Part shown: piece after piece, positions 31,445 to 51,508 of the stretch
Layout of the letters: each line of letters starts with the position of its first letter
How positions within the stretch are numbered: position 1 is the first letter of the stretch
Source of the DNA: Epilithonimonas hungarica
GTDB lineage: Bacteria; Bacteroidota; Bacteroidia; Flavobacteriales; Weeksellaceae
NCBI RefSeq assembly: GCF_900102265.1
Contig: NZ_FNBH01000003.1
Coordinates: forward strand, 310,001 to 374,000
Length of the DNA: 64,000 nucleotides
Reading direction: 5' to 3'
Program-made: the position numbers and the translations under genes
The notes under the pieces: generated by a model
Database searches by the model: none
Told to the model about the DNA's origin: nothing
The model's input: only the letters and a program-made list of their open reading frames with translations

Positions 31445-31490
31445 CAAAATTAGATGGTTGGATTTTCAACGGCATCCCGTACTATACTGA
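31445..31490 (-). promoter_or_regulatory. Operator and -7 element of rhaD (regulon site 5)
   Basis: On the minus strand the 18-bp direct repeat TCAGTATAGTACGGGATG (31490-31473) is followed by exactly 20 bp and then TAATTTTG (31452-31445). The repeat is degenerate but has the same 10-bp period and spacing as four other sites in this locus. Confidence 0.7.
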
Positions 31491-31583
31491 TGAATCCTAG
31501 ATTTAAAGTTAATTTAAAATAAGATTCAGCTTCAATCCGACGATTATTGATATCAAATCCAACCCTTTCTAATTTGTAAAATA

Positions 31584-33653
31584 TTAATAGCCTGGCAATT
31601 GGGTCAGATTTGGATTATCTATCATTGGGTGTCCTGCAGATGCGGCTGCGAAAGGCAACAGTTCTGTTTTATTGGTCTGGAAACCGAAGAAAAGACCATC
31701 GTTGGCAGACTCTACCCAACCCGGATACGCATTTCCATTCTCAGCATAACCAAACGGCTTAGAATACATATTGTTACCCATTCCCAAAACATTGAATCCT
31801 GCTCCAAACCCTACTGCTTTTCTCGCATTGCCATTAAACGTACTGGTGTATGCTTCAAACATCTGTGTAGGATACCATTTATCATCTGTCGAAATAGGCT
31901 GTCCATGTGCTGCTACAATCGCTCTTAATGCTGTTTGATAAGCTGCATAATTTGCTGAACTGGTAGGAACGTTTTTGATGGTAGCAATTTCCGTTGGGTC
32001 GGTGATGTCAATGTAAGGTAGTGCTAAGAATGGATCACCATAAACCTGGGAATTTTTATGAAACTTATAGAGTCTGTAAGTGGCCACATTAGCATATTTA
32101 CCAACTCTTCTGGTCAAATCCTTCATGTCCTGTCTTGTCGCCTCGATTTCAGTCGTTAAGCTATTCGTTCTGATAAGGTCTGTACGGAGCATAAACTCGC
32201 CGGCAAACTCCCATTTTCTTTCCTGAACAATCGCCTTTAAAAACTCAGTTTGTCCGGAAGGTAATGGCAATGAACCAATACCAGCTCTTGTACGAATGGC
32301 TGTCAATGCAGCGTTTGCAGCAGCTGTAGGACCATTGTTAAGATAATTTTGAGTCTCCGCATACATCAATAGAACATCGGCATATCTCAGTAATGGAATA
32401 TTAAGGTTTCTGTCAGCAGCGGCCTGTGGCTCAACACACCAGGACAATCTGAATTTTCCAGGCATTATTGCAGAATAAGTAGTTCCTACATCTACAAATG
32501 TATCACCTGCAGCTCCGGCTTCCAGGAAGTAGACACTGTAAGAAGTACAAGTCACATCTCTACGGGTATCATTTTGGTTGAATGAAAGATAGTATGACGG
32601 CAATATCATCTGCTGGGAAGAACGTGAACCGAAAACGCCATTCTTATACCCCGGATGCGCATAGACCTGGAATGCCGAATTGGTATTCTGACCCAATGAT
32701 GCGACATGCCAAAGCATTTCGGAATTGACCGCACCGAAATTTCGGCGATCAAAGTTGAACCATAATGTCTCGAAGCCGCTTTTTCCACCTTGGCTTTGAA
32801 CGAGACTTTTGGTACCGCCATTAATGATAGCTGCACAAGCATTATCTGCAATCTGATAAAGTTCCCTTACTCTTGTATTGTCCGAACGGCGGGAAACCAC
32901 ACCTGGGTTGGAAGTGTTCAGCTCCCAACGAAGCGAATAACCCGCAGCATAAAGTGCAATTCTTGCAAGCAGTGCATTGACACCTTCTTTAGACAAACGT
33001 TCTGTGGTCCCGAAACCGCTGGCTGCCAATGTAGGAACAGTCACTGATGCTTCCTGCAAATCGCCTACAATTCTGTCATAGATTTCATCGCGAGAGGCAC
33101 GTTTTGGATAGAATGTATTTTCATCATTCGGGTCCAGTGTTTCCAATGGCTCAAATACCGAAGGTACGTCGCCATAAATCCTAATCAGGTTATAATAACA
33201 AAAAGCACGGATGGACTTAGCCTCACCAATCAAGGCGTCACGTTTTTCACTTGCAGGCATTTTCCCTAATTGATACACTGCAATATTGGTTCGCTCGATG
33301 ACAGCATACATAGCAGAGTAGATCCCTGTTACCGTAAATGGTGTGTAAGCGTCATAATTGTAATTACAAACATTATATTTTGAATTATTGAGCGCTTCAA
33401 CAGAATGGTTCACTGTGTCACCTGCGCCCAATTGATAGAACATCTCTGTGGGAACCAGACCTCTGTAGCATCCCAATACGAACATCTCAGCGGTCTGCAG
33501 GTCTTGAAAAACCAAATCCGAATCTGCTGTGTTGTAAGCCGGCTGGTCCAGAAAATCTTCATTACAGGAGTTGGTTGCCAAAACAGCCAAAACCATTGAC
33601 GACATTACAAGCGTCTTTTTTAAAAATCTATGTTGGATAAATATATTTTTCAT
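31584..33653 (-). CDS. SusD/RagB-family nutrient-binding outer-membrane lipoprotein
   Basis: A 689-residue protein with a lipoprotein signal ending LATNSC (Cys30), followed by NEDFLDQPAYNTADSD, the usual SusD start (DFLDxxP). TPR-like helices (AKSIRAFCYYNLIRIYGDVP, the conserved R-A-FxYxxLxxxYGDVP motif) and the C-terminal QERKWEFAGEFMLRTDLIR motif confirm the family. SusD proteins sit on the cell surface as the lid of a SusC transporter and bind glycan pieces. The gene follows its SusC partner by 20 bp. The expected ligand is an RG-I oligosaccharide or rhamnose-containing glycan, inferred from context. Confidence 0.95.
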   Translation of the reverse strand: MKNIFIQHRFLKKTLVMSSMVLAVLATNSCNEDFLDQPAYNTADSDLVFQDLQTAEMFVLGCYRGLVPTEMFYQLGAGDTVNHSVEALNNSKYNVCNYNYDAYTPFTVTGIYSAMYAVIERTNIAVYQLGKMPASEKRDALIGEAKSIRAFCYYNLIRIYGDVPSVFEPLETLDPNDENTFYPKRASRDEIYDRIVGDLQEASVTVPTLAASGFGTTERLSKEGVNALLARIALYAAGYSLRWELNTSNPGVVSRRSDNTRVRELYQIADNACAAIINGGTKSLVQSQGGKSGFETLWFNFDRRNFGAVNSEMLWHVASLGQNTNSAFQVYAHPGYKNGVFGSRSSQQMILPSYYLSFNQNDTRRDVTCTSYSVYFLEAGAAGDTFVDVGTTYSAIMPGKFRLSWCVEPQAAADRNLNIPLLRYADVLLMYAETQNYLNNGPTAAANAALTAIRTRAGIGSLPLPSGQTEFLKAIVQERKWEFAGEFMLRTDLIRTNSLTTEIEATRQDMKDLTRRVGKYANVATYRLYKFHKNSQVYGDPFLALPYIDITDPTEIATIKNVPTSSANYAAYQTALRAIVAAHGQPISTDDKWYPTQMFEAYTSTFNGNARKAVGFGAGFNVLGMGNNMYSKPFGYAENGNAYPGWVESANDGLFFGFQTNKTELLPFAAASAGHPMIDNPNLTQLPGY

Positions 33654-33673
33654 TTTAAATCAATTTAAAAAAA

Positions 33674-36600
33674 TTAAAATGTTAAGTTAATTCCAAGTAC
33701 GTAACTTCTGGACCTTGGATAAGTAGAACTGTCATAGCCTGGTGTCACAGCCACGCCACTTGCAGCAGAAACCTCCGGGTCAAAACCGGAATAACCTGTT
33801 ATCGTAGCTAAGTTATTCACTGTAACATAAATTCTGGCATTGGTTACCATAATGTCTCTCAGGAAATTTTTAGGTAAAGAATAGCCTAAGGTCAGCTGCG
33901 CAATTCTAAGATAGGAACCATCTTCTACATAATACGATGACGGATAAGTGATGGTCTGTGTATTAGTATTGCTAAGACTCCAAAGTCTTGAATCTTCATT
34001 AGGGTTAAGTTCTTTCAATCTGGCAAGGTTCATTGTCTGCTGTCCAGTATTTGGGTCGATCAGATGATAGAAATTAGTCCCGAATTCCGACGGAACGTTC
34101 TGAAACAAGGCATATGGACTTAAACTATGTTTAGTAGCATTGTACACATCGCCACCAACGCTGAATTTCATAAATACTGCTAAGTCAAAACCTTTGTAAG
34201 AAAAGTTATTGCTCATTCCTCCGATGAAATCTGGCGTTGCGTCACCAATCTTCACCATCTTTCTTGTGAATTGGTCTCCTGCTTCATTATCAGCAGCAAA
34301 CTTGATATCTCCTGGCTTGGGTGTTCCCGTTGCTGGTTTCACCACACCATCTTTAAGAGTCAATGAACCATTGGCGTTCTGGATGAAATCATCCGTTGTG
34401 TAGATTCCCTGATAAACATAGCCATACATCTCACCAAGCTGTTCACCAACTGTTGCATAATAGGTAACCACACCTGCTCTGTTGCTTCCAACGCTGAACG
34501 TTCTGGAATTTCTTCCCCGCTCTAATGAAAGTACTTTGGAACGGTTATGACCGATGTTGAAATCTGTGGACCATCTGAAATTGTCAGACCTCCAGTTGAT
34601 TGTGTTCAATGTAAACTCGACACCACGATTTCTCATATTTCCAATATTTTGATATTGTCTGGAGTATCCTGACGATGTCGGAAGAACCGCTTCTAGAAGC
34701 ATTCCATCTACAATATTATTATACCACTCAGATGTCAGTTTAATTCTACTATTGAATAAGGCTAGATCGACACCGACATTCGTTGTCTTCATTTCTTCCC
34801 ATTTCAGATTTTGATTTCCAAGATTGGAACTCGTCACGTAAACTGGTGTTCCCGGCGTGTTGTTCATAGGATAATCCGTAATGGAATAAGTCGTTTTAAA
34901 GAGATTGTTTCCGATATCATTATTCCCTGTCACACCGTATTCAACTCTGAATTTTAGATCATTAATTGTATTTGTGATTTTGGAATTCTGCCAGAAACTC
35001 TCCTGGGATGTTCGCCAGGCTGCGGCTACTGATGGAAAAATACCCCATTTATTATTCGGTCCAAACTTTGATGACCCATCCCTTCTAATAGTGGCTGTTA
35101 ATAGATATCTATCATCGTAGTTATAGTTAACCCTTCCAAAGTAAGACATCAAAGAATTACTACTTCTGTCGGTAGATTTACCAGAAACTGTTGCTGTGGA
35201 AATATCATCCAGCCCAAAGTTAGGAAAAGGAAATTTTATCAGAGACAGATTATTGCTTTCTGATTGGGAATATACGAGTTCCTGACCGATCAATGCATTA
35301 AGCTTATGCTTATCTCCAAATGTATTGTTATAAGTTACCGTATTCGTAATCTGGTAACCGTAGGATTCGCTGTTTCCTATTTTTCCATTGATTCCCGTAG
35401 TTGTCGGGTCTGTAAGATTTGCCCTGGAGTTCTCATCGGAGAAAGAAGTTGATTTGGTGTTTTTCCAATTATATTGTCCAGCCGTTCTGAAGGTAAAATT
35501 CTTCAAAAAGTCAATTTCTATTCCTGCATTCGCTACAAAGTTTCTTGTGCGTGCATTGGAAGTGGAAGCCTGAAGTTCCACAAACGGGTTTTCTGTATCA
35601 AAACTCGGGTCCAATGCAGTAAAATCCCCGTACGTTTGCGTATTGAAAAGCTGGTCCAGACTGAAACGCGTCCCACCAATGATCGGCTGAAGCAAAATCT
35701 TCTTCATCCCGGAGTAAGCACCACCACCATTAAGCGAATTGGAATTGAAAACGGTATTGAAATCTACCCTTACGCCTTTGTACAACTCAGATTTAATATT
35801 TGCTCTCAAAGAGTTTCTGGTCTCACTGAAATTGCTTAGCAAGCCGTCTTGTTTATTGTAATTATAACTGACAAATGCCTGTGTCTTTTCAGTCCCAACA
35901 GAAAAATTAAAGTTATGATTGGTGGTCACTCCGGAACCGCCAAGCATTTTTTCCTGCCAATCCAGCGTGGGTGCATTAGCATATCTTTCGCTGATTCTGT
36001 TGAACACACCTGTGTAGAAACCTTGGGATTCAGGCGGTAGATTATTATCAAAATAATTGCTCCACTGGGCAGTTCTTCCGGCCAAGTTAGCCATTTCGTA
36101 CTGATATTTCACATAATCTTCTGCATTAGAAAGCATATCCAATCTTTTGGACAATGTATCGAATGAGGTGAAGTTGTTATAGTTGATAATAGTTTTTCCC
36201 TTTTTTCCGCCTTTAGTTTTGATGACGATAATACCATTGGAACCACGTGCACCGTAAATAGCGATGGCAGATGCACCTTTTAGCACATCAATACTTTCAA
36301 TGTCATTTGGGTTGATGACATTCAGGGCATTGTCCAGCTGGAATCCATCCACAATGTAAAGCGGCTCCGTGCCTTGCGTGATGGAAGCACCTCCACGAAT
36401 GGTAACATTGGCACTGGCACCAGGCGCACCACTTGCTGTAACGATATTAAGACCAGCTGCCCTGCCTTGCAGCGCCTGTAAAGCGTTCATTGCTGGTGTA
36501 GCTGCAAGTTCTTTTGCGGAAACAGATGACACCGAACCTGTAAGGTCGGACTTCTTAACCGTTCCATAACCGATGACCACCACTTCATCAATAACTTTGG

Positions 36601-36715
36601 TACTGACCTGTGCAGTATCGCTGACCGTTTCTTGACCAGCAAGAAAAGCAGACGAAAGCAAAAATGCCGGAAAAACGATTCCCTTTATTGCTTTGTGTTT
36701 AATGATTAAAGACAT
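33674..36715 (-). CDS. SusC/RagA-family TonB-linked outer-membrane transporter
   Basis: A 1013-residue TonB-dependent receptor. The signal peptide (VFPAFLLSSAFLAGQ) is followed almost at once by the TonB-box region DEVVVIGYGTVKKSDLTGS (from about residue 43). Then come the plug (LQALQGRAAGLNIV, IRGGASI, PLYIVDG, DIESIDVLKGASAIAIYGARGSNGIIVIKTK) and a 22-strand barrel ending in YVLGINLTF. The carboxypeptidase-regulatory-like domain that usually precedes the TonB box in SusC is absent. It imports glycan fragments bound by the SusD partner using TonB energy. Its promoter carries regulon site 1. Confidence 0.95.
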   Translation of the reverse strand: MSLIIKHKAIKGIVFPAFLLSSAFLAGQETVSDTAQVSTKVIDEVVVIGYGTVKKSDLTGSVSSVSAKELAATPAMNALQALQGRAAGLNIVTASGAPGASANVTIRGGASITQGTEPLYIVDGFQLDNALNVINPNDIESIDVLKGASAIAIYGARGSNGIIVIKTKGGKKGKTIINYNNFTSFDTLSKRLDMLSNAEDYVKYQYEMANLAGRTAQWSNYFDNNLPPESQGFYTGVFNRISERYANAPTLDWQEKMLGGSGVTTNHNFNFSVGTEKTQAFVSYNYNKQDGLLSNFSETRNSLRANIKSELYKGVRVDFNTVFNSNSLNGGGAYSGMKKILLQPIIGGTRFSLDQLFNTQTYGDFTALDPSFDTENPFVELQASTSNARTRNFVANAGIEIDFLKNFTFRTAGQYNWKNTKSTSFSDENSRANLTDPTTTGINGKIGNSESYGYQITNTVTYNNTFGDKHKLNALIGQELVYSQSESNNLSLIKFPFPNFGLDDISTATVSGKSTDRSSNSLMSYFGRVNYNYDDRYLLTATIRRDGSSKFGPNNKWGIFPSVAAAWRTSQESFWQNSKITNTINDLKFRVEYGVTGNNDIGNNLFKTTYSITDYPMNNTPGTPVYVTSSNLGNQNLKWEEMKTTNVGVDLALFNSRIKLTSEWYNNIVDGMLLEAVLPTSSGYSRQYQNIGNMRNRGVEFTLNTINWRSDNFRWSTDFNIGHNRSKVLSLERGRNSRTFSVGSNRAGVVTYYATVGEQLGEMYGYVYQGIYTTDDFIQNANGSLTLKDGVVKPATGTPKPGDIKFAADNEAGDQFTRKMVKIGDATPDFIGGMSNNFSYKGFDLAVFMKFSVGGDVYNATKHSLSPYALFQNVPSEFGTNFYHLIDPNTGQQTMNLARLKELNPNEDSRLWSLSNTNTQTITYPSSYYVEDGSYLRIAQLTLGYSLPKNFLRDIMVTNARIYVTVNNLATITGYSGFDPEVSAASGVAVTPGYDSSTYPRSRSYVLGINLTF

Positions 36716-36748
36716 ATGTTAATTTTTAGTAATATTAAATTAATACCG

Positions 36749-36794
36749 CCAAAGTACATTGTTAGGAAAAGTTTGGCATCCTGCAATATCCTGC
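36749..36794 (-). promoter_or_regulatory. Operator and -7 element of susCD (regulon site 1)
   Basis: The minus strand has GCAGGATATTGCAGGATG (36794-36777), two GCAGGAT units with a 10-bp period. Exactly 20 bp later is TACTTTGG (36756-36749), a one-mismatch TAnnTTTG. The susC ATG is 33 bp further on. Confidence 0.75.
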
Positions 36795-36966
36795 ATTATC
36801 AATTTATTAATTTATCATAATTTTTTAAAGTATATTTACACAAATAAAGTCAAAAACAAATTATAGTATTTAAAAAATGTTAATATTTTTTGAAAATAAA
36901 AACCAGAGTAAGCTTTATGTATTTTGGATTGAATTGATTATATTTTTCTGAATTCCATATTAATTT

Positions 36967-37080: not shown

Positions 37081-38169
37081 TTATCGTAAAGAATTGCCAT
37101 AACCCACAATCAAAATCGAGATGAACATCACCAACATCCCAATAACAATTGTTGAGATGGTCTTCTTGGAAACGCCTTTCCATTCTTTGATAATCACGCC
37201 CCAAAGATTTGCAATAAGGATGATGAATGCCATGTGTAAAATCCATGAGCTTGGACCATTGCCCATCTTGCTCTCTCCCATTCCATAAAAGAAAAATTGT
37301 AAAAACCACATCGTTCCAGCTAATGCACAGAAAATAATATTCTTTACAACCGGAACATTTTTCTTGATATAATCGGTATAAGATCTATTCTTAAATGAAA
37401 GGTAAAGACATCCGATAAGATTTGAAGCCATTCCGCCCCAAAGGACGACAACGTAGGTTACATTATTTTGAAAGAGGAATTCTCCCTGATCCGGATTTGC
37501 TAGTTTCCATGCTTCGTTTGCAACCGTGGCCATTGGTTTTCCAGCCTCCAGTCCGAAATTGAAACAAGCACTGAGAACTCCGGAAATAATAGCAACGATA
37601 AGTCCCAAACCAAATTTATATTCGGTTTTAGATTCTACACCATGAGGGTCGATGGAACTGGTTTGGAGTTCCTTATCCTTCATAACACCAGCTTTTCCAC
37701 TGATGATAATCCCGACAATACAAATTAACAATCCCAGAAGAACCATTCTTCCCCAATCGCTGGAAAGCATTAAACCAATATTATCTTTTCCTGCCTGCGG
37801 ATTAAATTCATAAAAAATGGAAGGAAGAAGCGAACCTATCACCATAGTAAGTCCCAACATGATACTGCTTCCAAGTGCAACGCCTAGGTAACGAACACCT
37901 AAACCATACATAAAACCACCAATTCCCCACAGTGCTCCGAATAAAAATGTCAGTCCTAAAATCGATGAGCTTTCATTTTTAATAATTTCCCAAAAATCAG
38001 GAATTGTAAGAAAAGCGGCCAAAGGTGGAACAATAATCCATGAAAAGACACCACCGATCAACCAAAAAGTTTCCCACTGCCACCCTTTCACCTTTTTATA
38101 AGGTAAGTAAAAACTGCCAGAAGAAAAACCTCCTAAAAAATGGAAAATAACTCCTAATAATGCATTCAT
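37081..38169 (-). CDS. rhaT: L-rhamnose/H+ symporter
   Basis: A 362-residue protein with about ten membrane helices and the RhaT hallmarks: an N-terminal LGVIFHFLGGFSSGSFYLPYKKVKGWQWE, then GALWGIGGFMYGLGVRYLG, and SGVLSACFNFGLEAGKP. It moves L-rhamnose with protons across the inner membrane. The length is close to the E. coli protein. It lies between the polysaccharide-degrading cluster and susCD with its own promoter (regulon site 4) and terminator, so it is a single-gene transcript under the same apparent control. Confidence 0.93.
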   Translation of the reverse strand: MNALLGVIFHFLGGFSSGSFYLPYKKVKGWQWETFWLIGGVFSWIIVPPLAAFLTIPDFWEIIKNESSSILGLTFLFGALWGIGGFMYGLGVRYLGVALGSSIMLGLTMVIGSLLPSIFYEFNPQAGKDNIGLMLSSDWGRMVLLGLLICIVGIIISGKAGVMKDKELQTSSIDPHGVESKTEYKFGLGLIVAIISGVLSACFNFGLEAGKPMATVANEAWKLANPDQGEFLFQNNVTYVVVLWGGMASNLIGCLYLSFKNRSYTDYIKKNVPVVKNIIFCALAGTMWFLQFFFYGMGESKMGNGPSSWILHMAFIILIANLWGVIIKEWKGVSKKTISTIVIGMLVMFISILIVGYGNSLR

Positions 38170-38191
38170 AATTATCGTATTGCTTGAATTT

Positions 38192-38237
38192 GAAAATTAA
38201 CAACATGTAATCGATTGCGCATCTTGTACTGTCATGC
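38192..38237 (-). promoter_or_regulatory. Operator and -7 element of rhaT (regulon site 4)
   Basis: The minus strand reads GCATGACAGTACAAGATG (38237-38220), then exactly 20 bp, then TAATTTTC (38199-38192). The units are a weaker form of the RCAGGAT repeat but keep the period and spacing. Confidence 0.65.
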
Positions 38238-38495: not shown

Positions 38496-39662
38496 TTATT
38501 TCAATTGATATACTTCGCTTGCAGCGAGTAATAAACAACCTAAACCATAATCCTCAAAATCAGGTTCCTTGCTAACAGAAAGCGGTTGTCCATCTTTTGG
38601 CTCTTTCCCTGTTCCCTGGACCCATCCCAAAAATCCATTCGGTTGAACAGAATCTTTTACAATTGCATTCCAAGCTTTAGTAAGAACTGGCAAATATGCT
38701 TTTTTATCAATCAAACCTTTATTAATTCCATAGGCCATTCCGTAAACAAAAAGTGCAGTTCCCGTCATCTCTTTTCCGCCAAAATTAGTTGGGTCGTGAA
38801 GACTCACATTCCAAAATCCATCCTCTCTCTGAATCGGAAGCAAAGCCGATAAAAGGTCTTTATAATCCTGCAAATACTCCTGATAATGTGCATCAGACCT
38901 AGGCGTATCTTCCAAAGTTCTTGCTAGAGCTGCTACAACCCAACCGTTTCCACGGCTCCAATAGCAATCTTCTCCATTCGGTTCTTTATAAGGAGGCACA
39001 AAACTTTTGTCTCTCCACCACAGTTTATCTTTTGCATTGTACAGACCGTTTCCGCCGTGTTTATACTTGGTGAAAGCGTACATCTCGTAATTTTTGTCAA
39101 AATATTTTTTGTCGCCAGTAATTCTACCCAACTTTGTAAAAATCGGCATTCCCATTTGCAATGCGTCTATCCACCACCAATCGTCAGATTTTCCGGAAGC
39201 AATCATACTATCCATAGAAAGCTTCACGAATTTGATTCTCTCAGGATTCTTTCTTCCATCGATTTCATAAAGGTCGAGATATGTTTGTCCACAAGCTTGA
39301 TTGTCGGCATTTCGAGTGTAAGTTCCACGCATCATATCCCAATTATGTTTTTGCGACCAATCCAAAGCGTAATCATAATATTCTTTTTTCGGATTAATTT
39401 TATAAAGCGCCATCAAGCCTTCATAATAAACCGCTCTCGTCCAAAGATTACTTGGCCATACCTTCTTTCCAACGACTTCCTTGCCTGCATCTGGCCATTT
39501 ATTCATAAAATATTGGTTGGCACGTTGAGCAACTTCCAGAACTTCTTTCTTATTTGGAAGTTCAGATATTTTCTTTGCGGTTGACTTTTTTTGAGCTGTA
39601 CAAGAAGAAATCCCTCCAAATAACAAAGCAAAAGCGAGACTTGCAGTTAGTAACTTTTTCAT
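38496..39662 (-). CDS. GH105 unsaturated rhamnogalacturonyl hydrolase, lipoprotein
   Basis: I place the start at 39662 (MKKLLTASLAF), giving 388 residues; the frame reaches back to 39701 but the extra 13 residues spoil the signal peptide. The lipobox is GISSC. The body is an alpha/alpha-barrel of the YteR/RhiN type with NLWTRAVYYEGLMALY, WWIDALQMGMPIF, YWSRGNGWVVAALA and MTGTALFVYGMAYGI. These enzymes remove the unsaturated galacturonyl residue left by rhamnogalacturonan lyases, by hydration of its double bond. The PL11 gene immediately upstream in the operon would make that substrate. Confidence 0.9.
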   Translation of the reverse strand: MKKLLTASLAFALLFGGISSCTAQKKSTAKKISELPNKKEVLEVAQRANQYFMNKWPDAGKEVVGKKVWPSNLWTRAVYYEGLMALYKINPKKEYYDYALDWSQKHNWDMMRGTYTRNADNQACGQTYLDLYEIDGRKNPERIKFVKLSMDSMIASGKSDDWWWIDALQMGMPIFTKLGRITGDKKYFDKNYEMYAFTKYKHGGNGLYNAKDKLWWRDKSFVPPYKEPNGEDCYWSRGNGWVVAALARTLEDTPRSDAHYQEYLQDYKDLLSALLPIQREDGFWNVSLHDPTNFGGKEMTGTALFVYGMAYGINKGLIDKKAYLPVLTKAWNAIVKDSVQPNGFLGWVQGTGKEPKDGQPLSVSKEPDFEDYGLGCLLLAASEVYQLK

Positions 39663-39709
39663 AATATTTATATATAATTTTTTCAAAAAAACTGATTTCA
39701 ACTGGTAAA

Positions 39710-41587: not shown

Positions 41588-41646
41588 AATCTTTTATTTT
41601 TAATAAGTTCTGGCTAAATGCTTTTATAAACTAGTTCTTTCAGTAT

Positions 41647-41721
41647 GTCATTCTGAACGAAATAAAATGTAGTGAAGAATCTCAATTTTTCTGACTGAGA
41701 TTCTTCCTTCGTCAGAATGAC
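41647..41721. repeat. Nested inverted repeat (GTCATTCTGA...TCAGAATGAC)
   Basis: Outer arms GTCATTCTGA (41647-41656) and TCAGAATGAC (41712-41721); inner arms GAAGAATCTCA (41674-41684) and TGAGATTCTTC (41696-41706). Both pairs are perfect, so the transcript would fold into one long hairpin. Confidence 0.8.
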
Positions 41722-41785
41722 AAATGCTCAATTAAATTAACCTGTTTATCCGCTTTCAATATTTGTTCTTAATCATACATTTTAA

Positions 41786-41884
41786 ACGTTGAATCTCTCG
41801 CAGCCCGACCTGAGTGGAGCTCTTTTTGTCGCAGCAAAGCGCAGACAAAAAAGCGGGAACGGAGGGCGGAAAAGCTGCCCAAAC
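41786..41884 (+). repeat. Intergenic imperfect-palindrome repeat, copy B
   Basis: CGTTGAATCT, GCAGCCCGACCTGAGTGG and CTTTTTGTC lead into a short loop, then GACAAAAAAGCGGGAACGGA and AGCTGCCC. It shares its ends with copy C (reverse at 59.8 kb) and more loosely with copy A, but has a shorter loop. Confidence 0.7.
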
Positions 41885-41924
41885 AATTCCCATCATTGTA
41901 TTTCAATCGATTGCACAGATTCGA

Positions 41925-42728: not shown

Positions 42729-42763
42729 ATCTATTTATTTTAATTTATTTGTTGGTTTTTCGC

Positions 42764-42811
42764 AAAGACGCAAGTTAATGAGAAAAATACTTTTTTAAGG
42801 CGCAAAGATTT
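42764..42811. repeat. CGCAAAG-type intergenic repeat
   Basis: CGCAAAGACGCAA and AAGGCGCAAAGATTTTAT occur within 48 bp between GH106 and the next gene. The same GCGCCTTTGCG string (reverse) occurs upstream of rsmA near 22657. Confidence 0.45.
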
Positions 42812-42870
42812 TATCTTCGATAAAATTATTTTAGTGCTTTTTCAACAAATAATATTTCATTTTTTATAAT

Positions 42871-45645
42871 TTATTTTGAATAATGAACTGGAATTAATTG
42901 AATTTCGCCATCCAACCCTGAAGGTTGTACTTTCCAATTTGAAGCGTCGAAAGGTTTGTAATCGATGTTGACAAAATTAATTTCGTGGTAATTTCGCCAT
43001 TGAATTTTATTTTGGTCCATATAACGGATTCGGTTTGCCATCAGGTTTGACACCTCAATCTGAATGGTATTTTTTCCCTTTTTCAAATATTTTCCGACAT
43101 TGATTTCAAACGGAAGACACCAGACAATTCCGGCATCTTGTCCGTTGATGATGACTTTTGCACTTTCATATAATTTGTCGAATTTCAGTACAAAATCATC
43201 GGCTTTATTTTTCTTTAAGCTGAAAGTCGTTGTGTAAACTCCTGTTCCCGAAAAGCTTTGCGTTTGAGCGTCTTCTGTGAAATTCGTCCAAGGCTGAAGT
43301 TTCGTTAACTTTCTGGGTTTCGGAAGTTCGGGACCTCCTTCTTTGAAACTTAATTGCCAAGGTTGATTTAAAACAATTGGCGCTTCTGTTTTTTCAACAT
43401 ATTTCCACTTTGCAACAGAATTATCTGCAGTCTCAGAAGCTTTTACAATTAAAGATTCCCCAGATTTTAATTGAATTTTCACTGAATTATTTTGAGTCTG
43501 GGCAATTCCATAATCCCCATTTTCAGGATTCATCAAAGTGACTTGTTTTCCGACAAAATTCAGCGGAATATTTTGATTGATTTCCTTGGAAGTATGATTG
43601 ACGATGTAATAATATTTTCCGCCATCAAACTTTCTTCTGATAAATTTTAATCCTGTATTGGTCAGTTTTTCTCTTTCAATTTTTAAGAATTCTAACCCTT
43701 TTTCAACATCAGAACTTAACACAATTTTTCCTTTTCCGAAGCTTGCTGATTTAAGATTTCCATTTTGCTGAAAAGGAATTTGAGTCCATAAAGATTGTAA
43801 TTCTTTTCTTCTTTTCTCCACTTCAAAATTTCCGGGGACATCTTTTGGTTCGTTTTGAAAAATAATTGAAGCACCATTTTGAGCCAAGTTTAAAATATTT
43901 TTTAAAGTTGATTCAGAGAAATAATTCAATTGAGGAATAATTAAAACTTTATAAGAACCTCCATTTTCCGAAACCTGAATATTCTGATTTTCAAACTTCG
44001 CTTCACCAATCATTTTATCAGAAATCATATCCAGAGAATAGCCGGATTTCCCTAATTTCTCAAGATTTTCGTAGAATACGGTCGGATGTAACCATTTTTC
44101 AATATTATGAATTTTGAACGCCATATCTTTCCCTTTCGGATTCGCCCATTGGTCGTAAACTGGCCAGTACATCAAGATTTCATTGTCTGATTTTCCGCTT
44201 TGTAACACAGATTGAATTCTCTCGATGTAAGAATTTAAACCTTTTATATTTGGCCATAAGCTGTTTTCAGGAACAAAATTCGTCGAAGCATAAAACAGCC
44301 AACCCGGAAACTGAACATCAGCCGGCGTATACGTTGTTCCGTGATAAAAAATATGGTTAATTCCTGATAGAAAAATCTGCTCAGCTTCAGGTTTTACCTG
44401 CGACCACGAAGTTTTGAAATGTTCTGTCAACCAAGTGAAAGATTCGTTGGAAATCAAAGGTTTTCCGGTAATATTGGCTGCTGAAGAGGCAAATTTCAGC
44501 ATATTGATGTCGGGAACTTCCTTCGTATTGATGTCTTCCAGATTTCTTCTCAAACCCTGAATATCAAATTTTGTACTTCCGAAAGTTTCCGATTCCGGAA
44601 TATCGACTGCTGCGTATAAATCGAGTAAATTTCCTGACGAACCGTGAGCCTGATTCGTATTTTTAGAATTTTTGGAATGTGCCCATTTCGTGAAATTATC
44701 GGTGAAGTTATTCAAAATCAGTTCGCTCAAAGTTTCTCTGTAATCCGATTTTACCCTTCCTGCAATTTCATTTAGCTCATCACTAACCAAATATTTGATG
44801 TATGGACTTAAATCATACCCTCGTCTCTTCTTAAATTCATTTTTAAAATCAGCAGTCCAGTCTGCGTTGTAAACCTCGTAACTATCATTAAAAAATGAAC
44901 GGATTCCATAGTTTGAATTTCCAAAAGCTTTGTCGAAAGTTTTAAAATAATCAGCCGTTGCTGTGTTTGAAAAATGGTCTAAAGTATAGCCTTCTCCGCC
45001 CGGAGCGGCACGTTTTACTTTTTGCAAAGTTTTACCTACAAAAACTGCATAGATTGTCCATTTTCCAGACGTCGGTTTCCAGTTTAAACTTCCATCGCTA
45101 CTGACTTTATCTGTTAAAACTACCGCTTCATTTTTTTCATTGTAAGCTGTGACAATATCTAATTTTATGATTTTTAAATTCTTCTGTTTTTCATCTTTCA
45201 AAATAATTTTATCTGAAAAATTCTCGCCTGCTGAAATCGTGTAAGTCTGAACAATCATTTTCGTAGCAGCATCCTGTTCATCAACTTGCGGTCCACCGAT
45301 TGGCCAGCCTGTTCCAACCGACATATCGACGCCCATATTCAGGTTTTTTGCTTTGTAAGTAGTGAGTTGAAGCATTTTCATCCATTCCGGAGAGAGATAA
45401 TTAATATATTTACTTTCAAATCCTTTTGCGCCGTAAATAGGAACAATTTCAACGCCTCCAAAACCTGCTTTATTAAGTGTTGTCAGCTGTTTATCCAATC
45501 CTTTTTCATCGACAGCATTTCCCATCCACCACCAACGTGTCCAGGGTTTTGCGGTCTCGGTGGTTTTTGGCCACGGATTTTGTGCGGAAAGATTTCCGAA
45601 AGCAAAACAGATTAAACTTAATTTTATGATAGATTGAATATTCAT
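42871..45645 (-). CDS. GH106 alpha-L-rhamnosidase, secreted
   Basis: A 924-residue protein with a signal peptide (LSLICFAFGNLSAQ). The mature N-terminus (PWTRWWWMGNAVDEKGLDKQL and NKAGFGGVEIVPIYGAKG) is characteristic of GH106, followed by a distorted TIM barrel (SNESFTWLTEHF, INHIFYHGTTYTPAD). A C-terminal beta-sandwich has galactose-binding-like features (LKFDKLYESAKVIINGQDAG). It would release terminal alpha-L-rhamnose from RG-I pieces, feeding the rhamnose pathway coded in the same locus. It is followed closely by CE12 upstream in the operon (10-bp gap). Confidence 0.9.
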   Translation of the reverse strand: MNIQSIIKLSLICFAFGNLSAQNPWPKTTETAKPWTRWWWMGNAVDEKGLDKQLTTLNKAGFGGVEIVPIYGAKGFESKYINYLSPEWMKMLQLTTYKAKNLNMGVDMSVGTGWPIGGPQVDEQDAATKMIVQTYTISAGENFSDKIILKDEKQKNLKIIKLDIVTAYNEKNEAVVLTDKVSSDGSLNWKPTSGKWTIYAVFVGKTLQKVKRAAPGGEGYTLDHFSNTATADYFKTFDKAFGNSNYGIRSFFNDSYEVYNADWTADFKNEFKKRRGYDLSPYIKYLVSDELNEIAGRVKSDYRETLSELILNNFTDNFTKWAHSKNSKNTNQAHGSSGNLLDLYAAVDIPESETFGSTKFDIQGLRRNLEDINTKEVPDINMLKFASSAANITGKPLISNESFTWLTEHFKTSWSQVKPEAEQIFLSGINHIFYHGTTYTPADVQFPGWLFYASTNFVPENSLWPNIKGLNSYIERIQSVLQSGKSDNEILMYWPVYDQWANPKGKDMAFKIHNIEKWLHPTVFYENLEKLGKSGYSLDMISDKMIGEAKFENQNIQVSENGGSYKVLIIPQLNYFSESTLKNILNLAQNGASIIFQNEPKDVPGNFEVEKRRKELQSLWTQIPFQQNGNLKSASFGKGKIVLSSDVEKGLEFLKIEREKLTNTGLKFIRRKFDGGKYYYIVNHTSKEINQNIPLNFVGKQVTLMNPENGDYGIAQTQNNSVKIQLKSGESLIVKASETADNSVAKWKYVEKTEAPIVLNQPWQLSFKEGGPELPKPRKLTKLQPWTNFTEDAQTQSFSGTGVYTTTFSLKKNKADDFVLKFDKLYESAKVIINGQDAGIVWCLPFEINVGKYLKKGKNTIQIEVSNLMANRIRYMDQNKIQWRNYHEINFVNIDYKPFDASNWKVQPSGLDGEIQLIPVHYSK

Positions 45646-45655
45646 TTCTTATTTT

Positions 45656-46978
45656 TTAGTTTCCATCAGGCTTCAAACTTTCCATAAAGATACTTTCTGG
45701 CCAATGGAATTTGTCAATATCATCGGGTTTATTAGGGTTAAAACTTTTATAATTCTTTGAGATATATTTCTTTAAAGGTAAATTTTGGTCAACGATAGAT
45801 TTAACCACACATTTCGCCAGTTCGTAAGCACCGTAGGTATTGAAATGTGTATCATCTGCTAAAACTGTTGGTTGATTTGGATAATTGTTTGCCGGATAAT
45901 AAACAAATGCTTTCTTAGAATTTTCTGGTCCCATCGCTTCGAACAAGGTCTTACTCATTGCATTTAAATCGATTAAATATACATTTTCTTCTTTCGCAAT
46001 TTCCCGCATTGCATCAGGAAAATCATCCAAAGTATTAACGATTTTATTATTTTCGTCAAAAACTCTTCGGTTCATTGAAGTAACCAAAACAGGAGTTGCC
46101 CCCAATTCTTTGGCTTTCGAAATCCATTCTTTTAACCTTTTTTTGTAACCAGATTTAATGCTGTTTCCAGCTTTTTGGTCGTTGTGCCCAAACTGGATTA
46201 AAAGATAATCTCCGGGTTTTATCTTATTCCAGATTTTATCGATTCGGTGACGGTCTTCAAAGGCTTTCAACGTTTCTCCGCTTTCAGCGTAATTGGCAAT
46301 CACAACTTCATTCGGAACGAAAAAATACGGCAACATCTGTCCCCACGACGCCCAAGGTTCGTACTGCGCATCTACAACCGTTGAATCTCCAGTGATATAA
46401 ATGGTTTTAGCTGTTGGGTTGGGTTGAATGATAACTGAAGAAACTTTTGGAGTTTTGTCATTGAATTCAATCGTCAATAAGTTGTCCCAATGTAAATATT
46501 TAGTTTCTCTTGGTTTTAATTTTACAATTCCGATTTTTTCGCCATTTTGATTTCGGATGATACTGTCTTTTACGTGAACTGAAATTTGTTTTTCAACAAT
46601 TTCACCTTGTTTTGTTTTGATATCATTCAGCATCAGACGGCGGTTTTCTACACGAACTGTCGTTTCAGATGCTCCTTTGGTATCGCCAAGATTTAATGTA
46701 ATATTATAATTTCCCTCAGGAATTGCGACTGAAAAATAGAAAGGTTTGTCACTCGTAATAAAGTCTCCCGTCAAAGCATTTCCTCCGTTATCAAACGATT
46801 TTAAACCGGAAATATCCATAAAACCGTAACCTTTTTTCTTATCGAATTTTGAGGTTGGCCTGATGGGAATAAAACCGTTTTCAGTTCTATTTCCTCCAAA
46901 ATCAAACTTGAAAGTCGTCTGTTGAGCAAACAAAAACGAACTTAAGAAAAGCGTCAAAAATTTTATCCAGTTCTGCAT
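45656..46978 (-). CDS. CE12 rhamnogalacturonan acetylesterase with N-terminal beta domain
   Basis: A 440-residue protein with a signal peptide (FLTLFLSSFLFAQ). The first about 180 residues form a beta-sandwich (FDFGGNRTENGFIPI, YNITLNLGD). The rest is an SGNH hydrolase of the RhgT/CE12 type: nucleophile Ser199 in ITGDST, block III GHNDQK (Asn266) and the Asp-His pair in DDTHF (Asp375, His378). It removes acetyl groups from RG-I galacturonic acid, opening the backbone to the lyase and hydrolases. It is one base from the GH2 gene, so clearly co-transcribed. Confidence 0.92.
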   Translation of the reverse strand: MQNWIKFLTLFLSSFLFAQQTTFKFDFGGNRTENGFIPIRPTSKFDKKKGYGFMDISGLKSFDNGGNALTGDFITSDKPFYFSVAIPEGNYNITLNLGDTKGASETTVRVENRRLMLNDIKTKQGEIVEKQISVHVKDSIIRNQNGEKIGIVKLKPRETKYLHWDNLLTIEFNDKTPKVSSVIIQPNPTAKTIYITGDSTVVDAQYEPWASWGQMLPYFFVPNEVVIANYAESGETLKAFEDRHRIDKIWNKIKPGDYLLIQFGHNDQKAGNSIKSGYKKRLKEWISKAKELGATPVLVTSMNRRVFDENNKIVNTLDDFPDAMREIAKEENVYLIDLNAMSKTLFEAMGPENSKKAFVYYPANNYPNQPTVLADDTHFNTYGAYELAKCVVKSIVDQNLPLKKYISKNYKSFNPNKPDDIDKFHWPESIFMESLKPDGN

Positions 46979-46979
46979 T

Positions 46980-49835
46980 TTAATCTGTTAAAATATTTTC
47001 TTTTGGCATTGTAAACTGTTTATTTTCATCGCCCAAATCCGGAAGACCAAAATAGAAATATAGTGTTCTTTTAAATGTCCCGTTCAGATGATTCGGTTCA
47101 CTTTCAGGACCTAAAGTTGAAGTATCATTATTAATATTAAACGCTAAAACAGTTCCCAACGGCGGAATTGCATCGAGGAAAGAAATATTTCCAGTTGGCA
47201 ATTTCGGGTAACCTTCTGCACCGTAAATTCCGTAAAAATCAAAAAGTCTGACAAACATTTTTTCTTCCTTTGTTCCGATTGTCATTTTTCCTTCGGCTGT
47301 ATCCAATTGCAACCACGAAACATCATCAAAATAACCTTTAAATTCAGGATAAATCCAAGGTGAAAAACCTGTTCTGGTGGAGTTTCTCAGGTTTTGCCAA
47401 ACATTGTAAGTTTGCCCCTGAGTACGGTTTTTCCAAACGTGATAAGGACCTTTTCCAAACCATTTTGCGCTGATGACATAATTTTCGGGATAATCAAAAC
47501 TTACTCCTGCAAACTGATAATCTCCGGAAAGTGAATATTCATAATTCAATTCTAAAATTCCGTTAGAATTAAGTTTCCAAACTGCTTTTTTTCCGTCTTT
47601 GTATGAAACTTCGATGATTTGATTTTTCCCTTCTGATAAAGATTTAATTGAAGACAATTCCGTTTTTCCATTCACGAAAATCGGTCCGTTTCGGAAGGTC
47701 ATTTTTTTGCCTTTTTTATCGATAATGACTGATTTTAATAATCCGTCTTTTTTACCTATTGAAAATTCTTTTTCGTCTGATTTTAAAATAAATAATGAAT
47801 CATTTTCCGCAACAGAAACCGGAAATTCTTTGATTAAAGTCTTCGAAAACTGTTTTGAAATCTCATCGTTCGATTTTATTTTCCAAGTCCAAGTGTAGAT
47901 TTCCTTTCCCAAAAAATCGGTTGCAGTCAGCATTAAAGCTTCACTTTCTTTCCAGTTTTGAGGAAGATTTAATCTAACATTTCCTTTTTCTGTTGGTTTA
48001 ATATCCGGAGATTCTGCTTTTCCACTTTGAAGTACATTAAATCCGGATTCAGACGAAAATGGTGTTTTGAATTTGACCAGTTTCCATTCAAACTGACATT
48101 CATTTAGATTGGTAAAATGATAACGGTTTTCAACAGGAATTGTTCCATTAAAATCTGTCGGCAACGTTTTAAAATCAATTTTTACAGGACTGTAAATTTC
48201 ACGGATGGCATAAAAACTTCCTTCTTTTTCACGATGCGGACCAACTACTCCATCCGGCGCATTAATCGCATTGACATCGATTTGATTATTGAAATCGGTT
48301 CGCACCAAACCTTCATCCGCAAATGCCCAAAGGAAACCGCCTGCTCCTTTTTTGGAATTCCAGTGAAGTTCCCAATAATCAGCCAAAGAAGTTCCGCCAC
48401 CACCGTCATCCTGTGCGTGCAGAAATTCGGTCGGCATATAAATATTTTCTCCTTCAAGGATTTTTTTGGTGCTGTAATAATCTTCGTAATGGTTGCAGTC
48501 GATGCCGTTGAAAGCATTTCCTGGTTTGTGATGGGCGTGAATGACGGGACGGTTTGATAAGTCGTATTTTGCAAATTCTGCATCCAAGTCCAAATTATGT
48601 CCGCCTTCGTTTCCGTTGCTCCAGAAAATAATCGATGGATGATTGGCATCTCTTGTAACCATTTCTCTGACCAGTTTTTTGCCGATTTCAGTACTATATT
48701 TTTTTTGCCAACCCGCCAATTCATCCAAAACATACAACCCTAAAGAATCGCAAATCTGAAGAAACGATTTATTCGGTGGATAATGGGCACAGCGAACGGC
48801 ATTCATATTCATTTCTTTGATGAGCTGAACGTCCATTAAATCTATATTTTTATTCACCGCTCGTCCTGTTTCAGGCCACCAGACGTGACGGTTGATGCCT
48901 TTCATTTTGATTTTGGTTCCGTTGATGTAAATTCCGTCGCCTTTTCGGATTTCAATGGTTCGGAAACCGAATTTTTCTTCGGTTTGGCTGATTATTTTTT
49001 TGTTTTTATTTAAAGTGAATTTTGCTTTGTATAAATTCGGTGTTTCTGCCGTCCAAAGCTTCGGGTTTTTAACGGAAAACTGAATCTGCTTTAAAGTATC
49101 TCCATTTTGAATTTGAACCTGAGATTCGCCAACCAAATTATTTTTAACATCAAAAATTTCAACTTTTAAATTATTGACTGAAGTGATTCCTTTTAAGTAA
49201 ATATTTGAACTAAAAGTTCCGTCCGCTTTTGCATCAATCGCCGTCCACGAAATATGTTCTTTTGGAGTTGCTTCCAAATAAACCGGGCGGAAAATCCCTC
49301 CTAAAATCCAGTAATCTGCAAGACGTTCTGCATTATTGACGGATTTATCAGCCGACATTTTGGAAACTTTTACCTCTAGAATATTTTCTTTTCCAAAAAT
49401 TAATTTGTCGGAAATATCATATTTAAATTCATAAAAAGCACCCTGATGAATTGCTCCGGCCAATTTTCCGTTGATTTTCACTTCGGTGTCGGTCATCGAA
49501 CCTTCGAAAACAATGTTGACCGATTTTCCTTTCCAGGAATTTGGAACTGAAAACTTGTGTTTGTAAAGACCTGTTTCGTCGTTAAATTTAAAATTCTTTC
49601 CGTAGGTAACGTAGTCTCTTCCGTAGTTGTAAGAGCCAAATCCCTGCTGTTCCCATTGTGATGGAACCTGTATTTTGTCCCAGCTTCCTGATTTTCTTCC
49701 TCCAGTTATCCAAAAATCCCATTCTTTTGTCTGCTCAGAATCTGTCCCGCTCAGGAATTGGATTTCCTTAGACTGAGAATGCAGAAACTGTGAGCAAAAG
49801 CATAAAAGAACGAATATTTTGGTAAAATAACTCAT
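46980..49835 (-). CDS. GH2 beta-galactosidase, secreted
   Basis: A 951-residue protein with a signal peptide (FVLLCFCSQFLHSQ). The order is sugar-binding jelly roll, immunoglobulin-like domain, TIM barrel, then C-terminal domains as in LacZ. The acid/base Glu410 lies in SNGNEGG and the nucleophile is Glu470 in MPTEFLHAQ. In this operon it would trim beta-galactose side chains of RG-I. Other GH2 activities cannot be excluded, but the large size and Bgal_small-like end favour beta-galactosidase. The start codon overlaps the GH28 stop by 4 bp. Confidence 0.9.
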   Translation of the reverse strand: MSYFTKIFVLLCFCSQFLHSQSKEIQFLSGTDSEQTKEWDFWITGGRKSGSWDKIQVPSQWEQQGFGSYNYGRDYVTYGKNFKFNDETGLYKHKFSVPNSWKGKSVNIVFEGSMTDTEVKINGKLAGAIHQGAFYEFKYDISDKLIFGKENILEVKVSKMSADKSVNNAERLADYWILGGIFRPVYLEATPKEHISWTAIDAKADGTFSSNIYLKGITSVNNLKVEIFDVKNNLVGESQVQIQNGDTLKQIQFSVKNPKLWTAETPNLYKAKFTLNKNKKIISQTEEKFGFRTIEIRKGDGIYINGTKIKMKGINRHVWWPETGRAVNKNIDLMDVQLIKEMNMNAVRCAHYPPNKSFLQICDSLGLYVLDELAGWQKKYSTEIGKKLVREMVTRDANHPSIIFWSNGNEGGHNLDLDAEFAKYDLSNRPVIHAHHKPGNAFNGIDCNHYEDYYSTKKILEGENIYMPTEFLHAQDDGGGGTSLADYWELHWNSKKGAGGFLWAFADEGLVRTDFNNQIDVNAINAPDGVVGPHREKEGSFYAIREIYSPVKIDFKTLPTDFNGTIPVENRYHFTNLNECQFEWKLVKFKTPFSSESGFNVLQSGKAESPDIKPTEKGNVRLNLPQNWKESEALMLTATDFLGKEIYTWTWKIKSNDEISKQFSKTLIKEFPVSVAENDSLFILKSDEKEFSIGKKDGLLKSVIIDKKGKKMTFRNGPIFVNGKTELSSIKSLSEGKNQIIEVSYKDGKKAVWKLNSNGILELNYEYSLSGDYQFAGVSFDYPENYVISAKWFGKGPYHVWKNRTQGQTYNVWQNLRNSTRTGFSPWIYPEFKGYFDDVSWLQLDTAEGKMTIGTKEEKMFVRLFDFYGIYGAEGYPKLPTGNISFLDAIPPLGTVLAFNINNDTSTLGPESEPNHLNGTFKRTLYFYFGLPDLGDENKQFTMPKENILTD

Positions 49836-51208
49836 TTTGCAGCAGTATCGGAATCGTCTTTTTTGTTGTAAGATTGCGTGAGAGAAGCTACTTGCATCAC
49901 ATTAACATTTTTTTGCTTTAAATTCTGAATGTTGTTCAGGTTTTGTATTTCAGGTTTTAAAGCTTTTATTTTCAAATTTTCAAATGTGAAATCTTTTAAA
50001 TCAAATAAGTCTGATTTTTCAACAGAGAATGCCGTTTCGCAACTGATATCGATATTCTTGATGGTAATATTGTTCGCCAATCCTTTTCTCGGTCTTTCTT
50101 CGCCTTTCAAATCAAAAAACTGATTCCAGCCTTTAACATACAAGAATGTTTTCACGTTTCCTGTGATGTTTTCTACGGTAAGATATTCGTAATGTTGAGG
50201 AGTATCCGGACGCATTTTCAGATGTAATAATCTTGAAGCATCTTTTACCTTAGAATTTCTTAGAATCACGTTGTAATTGTGAATTGATTCGCTTCCACAA
50301 GTCAAAACGCTGTGGCAAAATCCAAAACTGTTGTTTTCGATAAGGATGTTTCTGTTTTCACCGTTGTTCGGGTCTTTATCGGATTTCGGACCTTTTCCGC
50401 CTTTTAAAGCAATTGCATCGTCATTGACTGACATATAGCAATTTTTAATTAAGAAATTGGTACACGCATCGATGTCAACTGCGTCTGTACTTGGTGCTTT
50501 TACTGGTGCTTTCGGAGCAAGAATAGTGAGATTTAACAATTTTACAAAATCACTTTTGTAATAATGCGTACTCCAAAACGGTGAATTTTTAACAGTAATT
50601 CCTTCAATCTGAATGTTTTTTGAATTGGAAACGTAGATAATTCTAGGTCTCATTTCGTCCATATTGGTGCATTTAGGATTCCATTCTCTTCTTTTCCAGA
50701 ATGATTTCCAGAAGCGAAGTCCATTTCCGTCCAGAGTTCCTTTTCCTGAAATCGTGAAGCCGTCTAATCCGTCTGCATTAATCAAAGCAGGAAAATATTT
50801 CACAGTCTGACCTTCCATTCTTGTCGTTACAACTGGAAAATCATTGATATCATCACTGCCTTTTAATTTTGCTCCATTTTCCAGATGCAAATGGGTACCT
50901 TGTTTGAAGAAAATTGAACTGATTAAAAATGTTCCTTTCGGCACCACCACAACTCCACCACCATTTTTAGCAGCCAAATCAATGATTGCCTGAAGTTCTT
51001 TGGTCTGAAGAATCGTGCTGTCGTTCTTCACTCCATTGTCTGTAAGGATATATTTTTTGCCTAATTTGTTGATGTCTGTGGGCTTGCTTTCTTTAAACCA
51101 TTTGTCGATTTTGGTACCGTCTGGCCAGTTGTCCTGGCTTTTTAATCCTGAAAAAGAAAAGCAGAGCGAAAAAGCCAGGAAAAGCTTTGATATATTTTGA
51201 AATTTCAT
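49832..51208 (-). CDS. GH28 polygalacturonase / rhamnogalacturonan hydrolase, secreted
   Basis: A 458-residue right-handed beta-helix with a signal peptide (FLAFSLCFSFSGLKSQ). GH28 catalytic acids are seen in TDAVDID (about 241-247) and NDDAIALKGG (Asp263, Asp264). His299 in FGFCHSV and the GSES turn follow; RLLHLKM stands in the place of the usual RIK. It would hydrolyse galacturonic-acid linkages in pectin or RG-I. This is the first gene of the operon; regulon site 2 is at 51239-51284. Confidence 0.9.
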   Translation of the reverse strand: MKFQNISKLFLAFSLCFSFSGLKSQDNWPDGTKIDKWFKESKPTDINKLGKKYILTDNGVKNDSTILQTKELQAIIDLAAKNGGGVVVVPKGTFLISSIFFKQGTHLHLENGAKLKGSDDINDFPVVTTRMEGQTVKYFPALINADGLDGFTISGKGTLDGNGLRFWKSFWKRREWNPKCTNMDEMRPRIIYVSNSKNIQIEGITVKNSPFWSTHYYKSDFVKLLNLTILAPKAPVKAPSTDAVDIDACTNFLIKNCYMSVNDDAIALKGGKGPKSDKDPNNGENRNILIENNSFGFCHSVLTCGSESIHNYNVILRNSKVKDASRLLHLKMRPDTPQHYEYLTVENITGNVKTFLYVKGWNQFFDLKGEERPRKGLANNITIKNIDISCETAFSVEKSDLFDLKDFTFENLKIKALKPEIQNLNNIQNLKQKNVNVMQVASLTQSYNKKDDSDTAAK

Positions 51209-51238
51209 AATCGATTTTATATAGCTAATAAACGAAAA

Positions 51239-51284
51239 TAAAAATATAGTTTCTGAGAGTTTGGAGCATCCTGCCCTCTCCTGT
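51239..51284 (-). promoter_or_regulatory. Operator and -7 element of the GH28 operon (regulon site 2)
   Basis: Minus strand: ACAGGAGAGGGCAGGATG (51284-51267), then 20 bp, then TATTTTTA (51246-51239). The GH28 ATG is 30 bp beyond. Both repeat units are close to the RCAGGAT consensus. Confidence 0.75.
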
Positions 51285-51462
51285 CAAAAAAATTCTAATG
51301 AATATATAAAGGATATTTTTTTATTGATTTAATGTTAAATTTTGATTCTAAAACATTTTATTTGATGCAAACTCAATTATCTTCAAACCTTGATTAAATC
51401 TTAATTTCAGTTCATATTTAATTAATATAAAATTCACGAAAACCATAACAACCTGATAATTA

Positions 51463-51508
51463 ACAGGATTGGACAGGATAGTCATCTTGGTGGTTGTCTC
51501 TAATTTTC
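51463..51508 (+). promoter_or_regulatory. Operator and -7 element of the PL1 gene (regulon site 3)
   Basis: Plus strand: ACAGGATTGGACAGGATA (51463-51480), two perfect ACAGGAT units with a 10-bp period. Exactly 20 bp later is TAATTTTC (51501-51508). The PL1 ATG is at 51550. Confidence 0.75.

Follow-up and report, generated by a model that had tools for sequence, protein, structure and literature searches.

Five promoters in a 64-kb stretch of the Epilithonimonas hungarica genome share an 18-bp operator, and this element is probably the binding site of a GntR-family rhamnose regulator, an AraR-like chimera that most likely acts as an activator (probability about 0.72, judged from sequence comparison). 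The stretch, hereafter the window, comprises 64,000 nucleotides of contig NZ_FNBH01000003.1. As an earlier reading of the sequence (the initial annotation) had proposed, the operator is common to genes that break down the polymer, import its products across the outer membrane, take up rhamnose and catabolise it, which together form one regulon. Flavobacteriia degrade much plant and algal polysaccharide, and to our knowledge few of their operators have been defined.

The five promoters precede susC, an operon headed by a GH28 gene, a pectate-lyase-like gene, rhaT and rhaEW (Table 1). At each of them the repeat and a TAnnTTT-like box lie exactly 20 bp apart, the repeat occupies the place of the -33 element, and no -33 box can be recognised, all of which agrees with the first description of the locus. 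Two details of that description need adjustment. The 18-mers, described as two units with a 10-bp period, are present at all five promoters, with imperfect copies at rhaT (CATGAC/CAAGAT) and rhaEW (CAGTAT/CGGGAT); the boxes, described as TAnnTTTG-like, are TAnnTTT-like throughout, with the full TAnnTTTG only at rhaEW. Each 18-mer occurs exactly once in the window. A passage of PMC9723704 places the -7 box of Flavobacterium psychrophilum sigma-A promoters at -12 to -5. With the box here taken at the same positions, the 18-mer covers -50 to -33 and is centred at -41.5. A centre near -41.5 is the class II activator position, known from E. coli CRP.

A scan for the repeat alone with up to three mismatches returned 1001 matches, compared with 241 for the reversed pattern; it was judged of no value for testing, as CAGGAT fits the codon usage of genes, and a composite with the -7 box, CAGGATNNNNCAGGATG-N20-TANNTTT with at most three mismatches, was used instead. 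This composite matches five times in the window. None of 200 permutations of the repeat letters reached five (mean 0.095, maximum 2). The initial annotation had pointed to a genome scan as a check on the element. Across the whole genome (3.96 Mb) the composite gives 13 matches and its reversed control three, the 13 include all five sites, and the three best, each with one mismatch, all fall within this locus. Two mismatches are seen in another three, namely rhaEW, C5:191041 and a site on contig C3 that lies upstream of a GntR gene.

Since the pattern was derived from these five sites, tests in other genomes weigh more. Our sample consisted of 80 loci surrounding RhaEW in Flavobacteriia, to which the Chryseobacterium/Epilithonimonas group contributed 34 (L and G numbers below are our own handles for loci and genomes). 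The composite matched 163 times, in 71 of the 80 loci, while 40 permuted patterns averaged 2.7 matches and reached 36 at most. A degenerate form of it found 180 sites, of which seven were inside open reading frames (ORFs), 73 before RhaEW, 33 before SusC and 29 before RhaT. By a relaxed score, taken as the best position in about 540 bp, an operator precedes rhaEW in 79 of the loci, L133 having been dropped as operator-less at 9/14; by a stricter score it does so in 73. Among Chryseobacterium/Epilithonimonas loci that hold the gene in question, the operator precedes susC in all 33 cases and rhaT in 27 of 29. The logo built from the 39 rhaEW sites outside that group reads RCAGTAYAGTACAGGATRS-N20-TAnTTTTG and contains GTAYAGTAC, a stretch absent from the susC and rhaT copies of the window.

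The spacing was recovered as well when repeats were located without regard to the box. Of 164 such repeats in the 80 loci, 88 have an exact TAnnTTT at 20 bp; the next-best gap, 30 bp, belongs to six repeats, and all six have a further unit one turn upstream. A third repeat unit one helical turn farther upstream is present in L079, L084, L097, L102, L105 (rhaEW) and L138. A divergent pair of sites that closely resembles the one at the GH28 operon lies at G212:C23:98224-98463.

The probable regulator, which accompanies this operator, is a GntR-type protein. Its cluster, the largest of regulator-like ORFs among clusters of which a part was scanned for domains, has a member some 348 residues long in 71 of the 80 loci. 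The gene adjoins rhaEW, mostly in divergent orientation, in Flavobacteriaceae and lies 3' of lldD in the Chryseobacterium group. In E. hungarica itself the ortholog is unlinked and outside the window (G000:C3:313968-315011, minus strand; 89% identical to the L075 copy), where it adjoins a second pectin cluster with GH28, DUF4450 and esterase genes. A composite site is located about 260-285 bp upstream of it. The corresponding operator in L075, L076, L103 and L104 stands before a gene, c38, that precedes the GntR gene on the same strand in the three loci mapped, and operators were assigned directly to the GntR gene in three loci. Residues 24-87 of the E. hungarica protein form an N-terminal winged helix (PF00392, E = 2.3e-12, 46.8 bits, cut-off 27). 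The LacI-like domain PF13377 scores 22.1 bits in this protein, under the cut-off of 26.5, and 36 bits, above it, in a paralogue. The AlphaFold model of the regulator has a predicted local distance difference test score of 88.4, and the best PDB matches found by Foldseek are LacI, RbsR and sugar-binding proteins, with E values down to 3.9e-13; the C-terminus is a LacI/GalR-like sugar-binding domain.

Operator and regulator also coincide across 246 genomes of the order. The ortholog line was set at 46% identity after the data had been seen: 39 genomes passed E 1e-50, of which 29 reached at least 46% and the other ten, at only 34-42%, were counted as ortholog-less. The same 29 genomes carry RhaEW. 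A tight form of the operator is found in 29 of 29 genomes with the GntR gene (132 matches) versus 22 of the 217 others (31 matches; Fisher p = 3.5e-24), and its reversed control matches five times in all 246. From the matches listed we took 40 sites of GntR-carrying genomes, none of them at the rhaEW promoter although those of G116 and G133 fall within a few kilobases of rhaEW, together with 20 of the 31 sites from ortholog-less genomes. In the former, one site of 40 falls within an ORF of 150 or more residues and 35 are just upstream of one; in the latter, 16 of 20 are inside an ORF and three upstream of one. Five sites of the first set, with no ORF of this length starting in range, did not enter the protein scan, in which 25 of 40 protein families are listed. 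In these families, nine of the 35 downstream proteins are SusC-like and carry a TonB plug domain; there are also rhamnosidases and further glycoside hydrolases, together with sulfatases and 2-keto-3-deoxy-6-phosphogluconate (KDPG) aldolases. For all nine loci that lack a GntR gene close by, the genome encodes an ortholog at another place (56-92% identity) and gives 3-9 operator matches; two of these nine genomes, G251 and G252, are by their coordinates the same as G110 and G172 among the 246.

The letters of the operator change with the recognition helix of the GntR protein. Where the helix reads SRDT.[ED]K, the second repeat unit is CrGGA[TC] in 66 of 66 loci. Where it reads SRDT.VR, in L118, L120, L127, L132 and L135, the same position holds CAGAAC (four loci) or CATAAC (one), again with the 20-bp gap. 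Genomes with the VR form only contain zero, one and zero matches to the canonical operator. A count of the VR operator with one mismatch in 14 genomes was near its reversed control; exact matches number six, all in four of the five VR genomes, for a pattern written from those sites. The genomes of L118 and L120 (G246 and G247, both Allomuricauda) hold both GntR paralogues and both kinds of operator, with two matches each.

In the mechanism that we propose, the half-sites RCAGTAY-AG-YACAGGATR, one helical turn apart, would replace the -33 box at -50 to -33. The sensor domain of the GntR protein would bind a rhamnose-derived ligand, for which rhamnose, rhamnulose and its phosphate are candidates, and the bound protein would most likely bring RNA polymerase to promoters in which a TAnnTTTG-like -7 box is the sole remaining element. 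One signal would in this way switch on the breakdown of the pectin backbone, SusCD import, RhaT and rhamnose catabolism, and it would probably feed back on the GntR gene. We infer three of these elements: that the protein binds the operator directly, that its ligand is rhamnose or an intermediate of rhamnose catabolism, and that it activates and does not repress. As to the last, the strict distance and the lack of a -33 box are more in keeping with activation than with repression. A more detailed version, to which we would give slightly less than even odds, can be outlined from the sequences. The GntR-LacI chimera of the rhamnose-using members (29 of the 246 genomes) may be a class-II-like activator whose head-to-tail dimer, placed on the 10-bp repeat at exactly -41.5, stands in for the -33 contact made by the unusual sigma factor of Bacteroidota; the change of helix and operator in one clade, with both versions in the two Allomuricauda genomes, may then capture a regulon splitting in two.

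Several observations weigh against this interpretation. None of the 246 genomes has the GntR gene or RhaEW without the other, and co-occurrence by itself therefore does not single out GntR. The VR proteins form a single clade, so that the change of helix and operator counts as one evolutionary event. Many of the 80 loci are close relatives, with 34 from one group, and their counts are not independent. In the E. hungarica genome, eight of the 13 composite matches are outside the locus; only one of these, at the GntR gene, is assigned, and six of the rest have three mismatches. The GntR copy of G251, at the same place as in G110, has one TAG in the match. At L133 rhaEW has no operator, although the genome has a GntR ortholog (56%) and operator matches elsewhere. 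The absence of a TTG at the -33 spacing (0 of 82 operator promoters, versus 7 of 85 other TAnnTTTG sites) is a weak contrast, because the operator itself fills those positions. Finally, the operator reads better as a direct repeat than as a palindrome, by scores that were taken on chosen sites and are partly circular, the period-10 score because the sites were selected by a period-10 pattern; according to passages of PMC4494728, most GntR operators are GT...AC palindromes.

The family history of the protein counts in the same direction and leads to the alternative that survives best, in which the same GntR-LacI-like protein is a repressor that blocks RNA polymerase from -50 to -33 and is released by the sugar. 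We consider it unlikely, if far from negligible. Most characterised GntR proteins are repressors, and those of the AraR type usually are. By its PDB title, AraR of Bacillus subtilis is a repressor, and a flavobacterial GntR protein is likewise named in a title as a repressor of alginate genes. Against this, repressor sites usually vary in position, whereas the spacing here is strictly 20 bp, with the centre at -41.5, and the promoters offer no recognisable -33 box for unregulated transcription.

The other alternatives place a different protein on the repeat. Regulators of the OmpR/PhoB type bind direct repeats of 10-11 bp. Rhamnose regulators of the DeoR type are described, in parts of PMC3870299, with direct repeats of 10-11-bp period, and the period here is 10 bp. 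An unlinked regulator of such a family could therefore be the binder and GntR a co-inherited neighbour; we regard this as very improbable, as it leaves unexplained both why an operator precedes the unlinked GntR gene of E. hungarica and why helix and operator letters match.

The AraC-family activator that the initial annotation had put on the repeat fares worse still, and we think there is little to be said for it. The genome has 60 HTH_18 matches, and in Bacteroides an AraC-family protein, RhaR, governs the rhamnose genes (passages of PMC3870299). AraC-like genes are found in four of the 80 rhaEW loci, a count made within the loci, versus 71 for the GntR-LacI-like gene, and the AraC rhamnose motifs described in the same source have a period of 21 bp, versus 10 bp here. 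It is the GntR gene that the presence of the operator follows from genome to genome, and with its recognition helix that the letters change. Among the loci with AraC-like genes, L145, L150 and L152 have the operator and L133 lacks it at rhaEW. The AraC-like gene of L133 (L133:8673-9572) lies near this operator-less rhaEW, and a replacement of the regulator is possible there. In the window, the sole match to PF12833 (AraC-type helix-turn-helix) is at 39-974, some 24 kb away from any target gene. That the motif is a chance or general promoter feature can be practically discounted, as none of the 200 permuted patterns reached the window count and the operator is in 29 of 29 genomes versus 22 of 217.

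Table 1. Operators, -7 boxes and target genes of the proposed rhamnose regulon, in window positions.
Feature	Position	Strand	Sequence	Predicted start	Predicted leader	Remark
susC/susD operator	36777..36794	(-)	GCAGGATATTGCAGGATG			
susC -7 box	36749..36756	(-)	TACTTTGG	36744	29 nt	20 bp past operator
GH28-GH2-GDSL-GH106 operon operator	51267..51284	(-)	ACAGGAGAGGGCAGGATG			
GH28 operon -7 box	51239..51246	(-)	TATTTTTA	51234	26 nt	
Pectate-lyase-like gene operator	51463..51480	(+)	ACAGGATTGGACAGGATA			
Pectate-lyase-like gene -7 box	51501..51508	(+)	TAATTTTC	51513	37 nt	
rhaT operator	38220..38237	(-)	GCATGACAGTACAAGATG			weakest of the five copies
rhaT -7 box	38192..38199	(-)	TAATTTTC	38187	18 nt	
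rhaEW-rhaI-rhaK-lldD operator	31473..31490	(-)	TCAGTATAGTACGGGATG			
rhaEW -7 box	31445..31452	(-)	TAATTTTG	31440		start 19 nt ahead of in-frame ATG 31421
Target operon: RhaEW, RhaI-like isomerase, FGGY rhamnulokinase-like protein, flavin mononucleotide (FMN)-dependent lactate-dehydrogenase-like protein (lldD)	25213..31475	(-)				
Target operon: SusC and SusD	31584..36715	(-)				outer-membrane import pair
Target gene: RhaT	37081..38169	(-)				L-rhamnose/proton symporter
Target operon: GH28, GH2, GDSL esterase, GH106, 267-aa protein, PL11 rhamnogalacturonan lyase, GH88/105-like	38496..51208	(-)				possibly several transcription units
Target gene: secreted pectate-lyase-like protein	51550..54540	(+)				fn3, LamG and type IX sorting domains

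The genes named at the outset, SusC/SusD, the GH28-headed operon, the secreted pectate-lyase-like protein, RhaT and RhaEW, retain their identities. RhaT and the bifunctional aldolase/dehydrogenase RhaEW both exceed an NCBIfam cut-off; the pectate-lyase-like protein scores 112.9 bits with the NCBIfam model PelZ, far under the model cut-off of 840. The longest rhaEW reading frame begins at ATG 31475, inside the operator, and several relatives align to RhaEW only from about residue 18; to judge by these alignments, the true start is probably ATG 31421. The susC -7 box (36749-36756 in the window copy) is TAnnTTGG in many relatives of the Chryseobacterium group, with the G one base early, and recalls the TAnnTTGY box SM5 of F. 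psychrophilum.

Other genes of the relatives have come into view around the same operator. An ORF of about 470 residues (cluster c5; L107:18686-20104 is one copy) that resembles a membrane transporter lies on the downstream side of the rhaEW region, and two scanned copies gave no Pfam match. It is present in 36 of the 80 loci, none of which is among the 33 that have RhaT, and an operator lies upstream of five copies, which makes it a candidate alternative rhamnose transporter. An additional operator recurs at L221:467-3478 and L223:477-3512 (genus g2), with similar sites in G005, G065, G139, G172 and G177; in L221 and L223 the protein of about 1000 residues behind it may be the counterpart of the pectate-lyase-like gene of the window. 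Operator-like sites are also seen ahead of L224:364-1053 and L226:363-1019, which probably encode the two KDPG/2-keto-4-hydroxyglutarate (KHG) aldolases of the protein scan, and suggest a tie to uronate breakdown.

Among known regulators, the AraR subfamily of GntR proteins, with AraR of B. subtilis, shares the fusion of a GntR winged helix with a sugar domain of the LacI/GalR type and the control of sugar and polymer use, as passages of PMC4494728 describe. The likeness is one of domain architecture, not of placement in a tree: PDB sequence matches, AraR included, span the winged helix only, the sugar pathway here is that of rhamnose and rhamnogalacturonan I, and the operator is a repeat of 10-bp period fixed at -41.5, with a GTAC-like palindrome only in its rhaEW version. 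FarR, NagQ and NanR are GntR proteins that also read direct repeats rather than palindromes (parts of PMC4494728), but their subfamilies are HutC and FadR, and their repeat letters differ from those of the operator here. The same survey, in the parts available, tabulates one protein of Bacteroidetes and mentions a small number of GntR proteins with direct repeats.

The RhaR regulons of Bacteroidales and other phyla have the same core of isomerase, kinase, aldolase and transporter, under regulators of other families. The comparison in which they are described lists twelve groups of regulators from the AraC, DeoR and LacI families, with AraC motifs of 21-bp period, and treats Bacteroidales; the word Flavobacteri does not occur in the available portion of its text (PMC3870299). 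In Bacteroides the RhaR regulon is a single operon, and in Bacteroides thetaiotaomicron the regulators HTCS_Rgu-1 and HTCS_Rgu-2 govern rhamnogalacturonan breakdown and SusC/SusD through direct repeats (passages of PMC3878776). Those are hybrid two-component systems apart from the monosaccharide regulator, whereas here one class of operator joins polymer and monosaccharide genes. No GntR rhamnose regulator or operator of Flavobacteriia appeared among the matches listed, the open-licence titles and abstract openings and some passages of text. The regulator-operator system is, as far as seen, new and of known kinds, combining a sugar-sensing GntR chimera with a polymer-plus-monomer regulon.

A sharp operator together with its probable regulator makes pectin and rhamnose regulons predictable from sequence in the genomes that carry the gene. 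With the strict placement at -41.5, the contact of an activator with the atypical RNA polymerase of Bacteroidota becomes directly testable.

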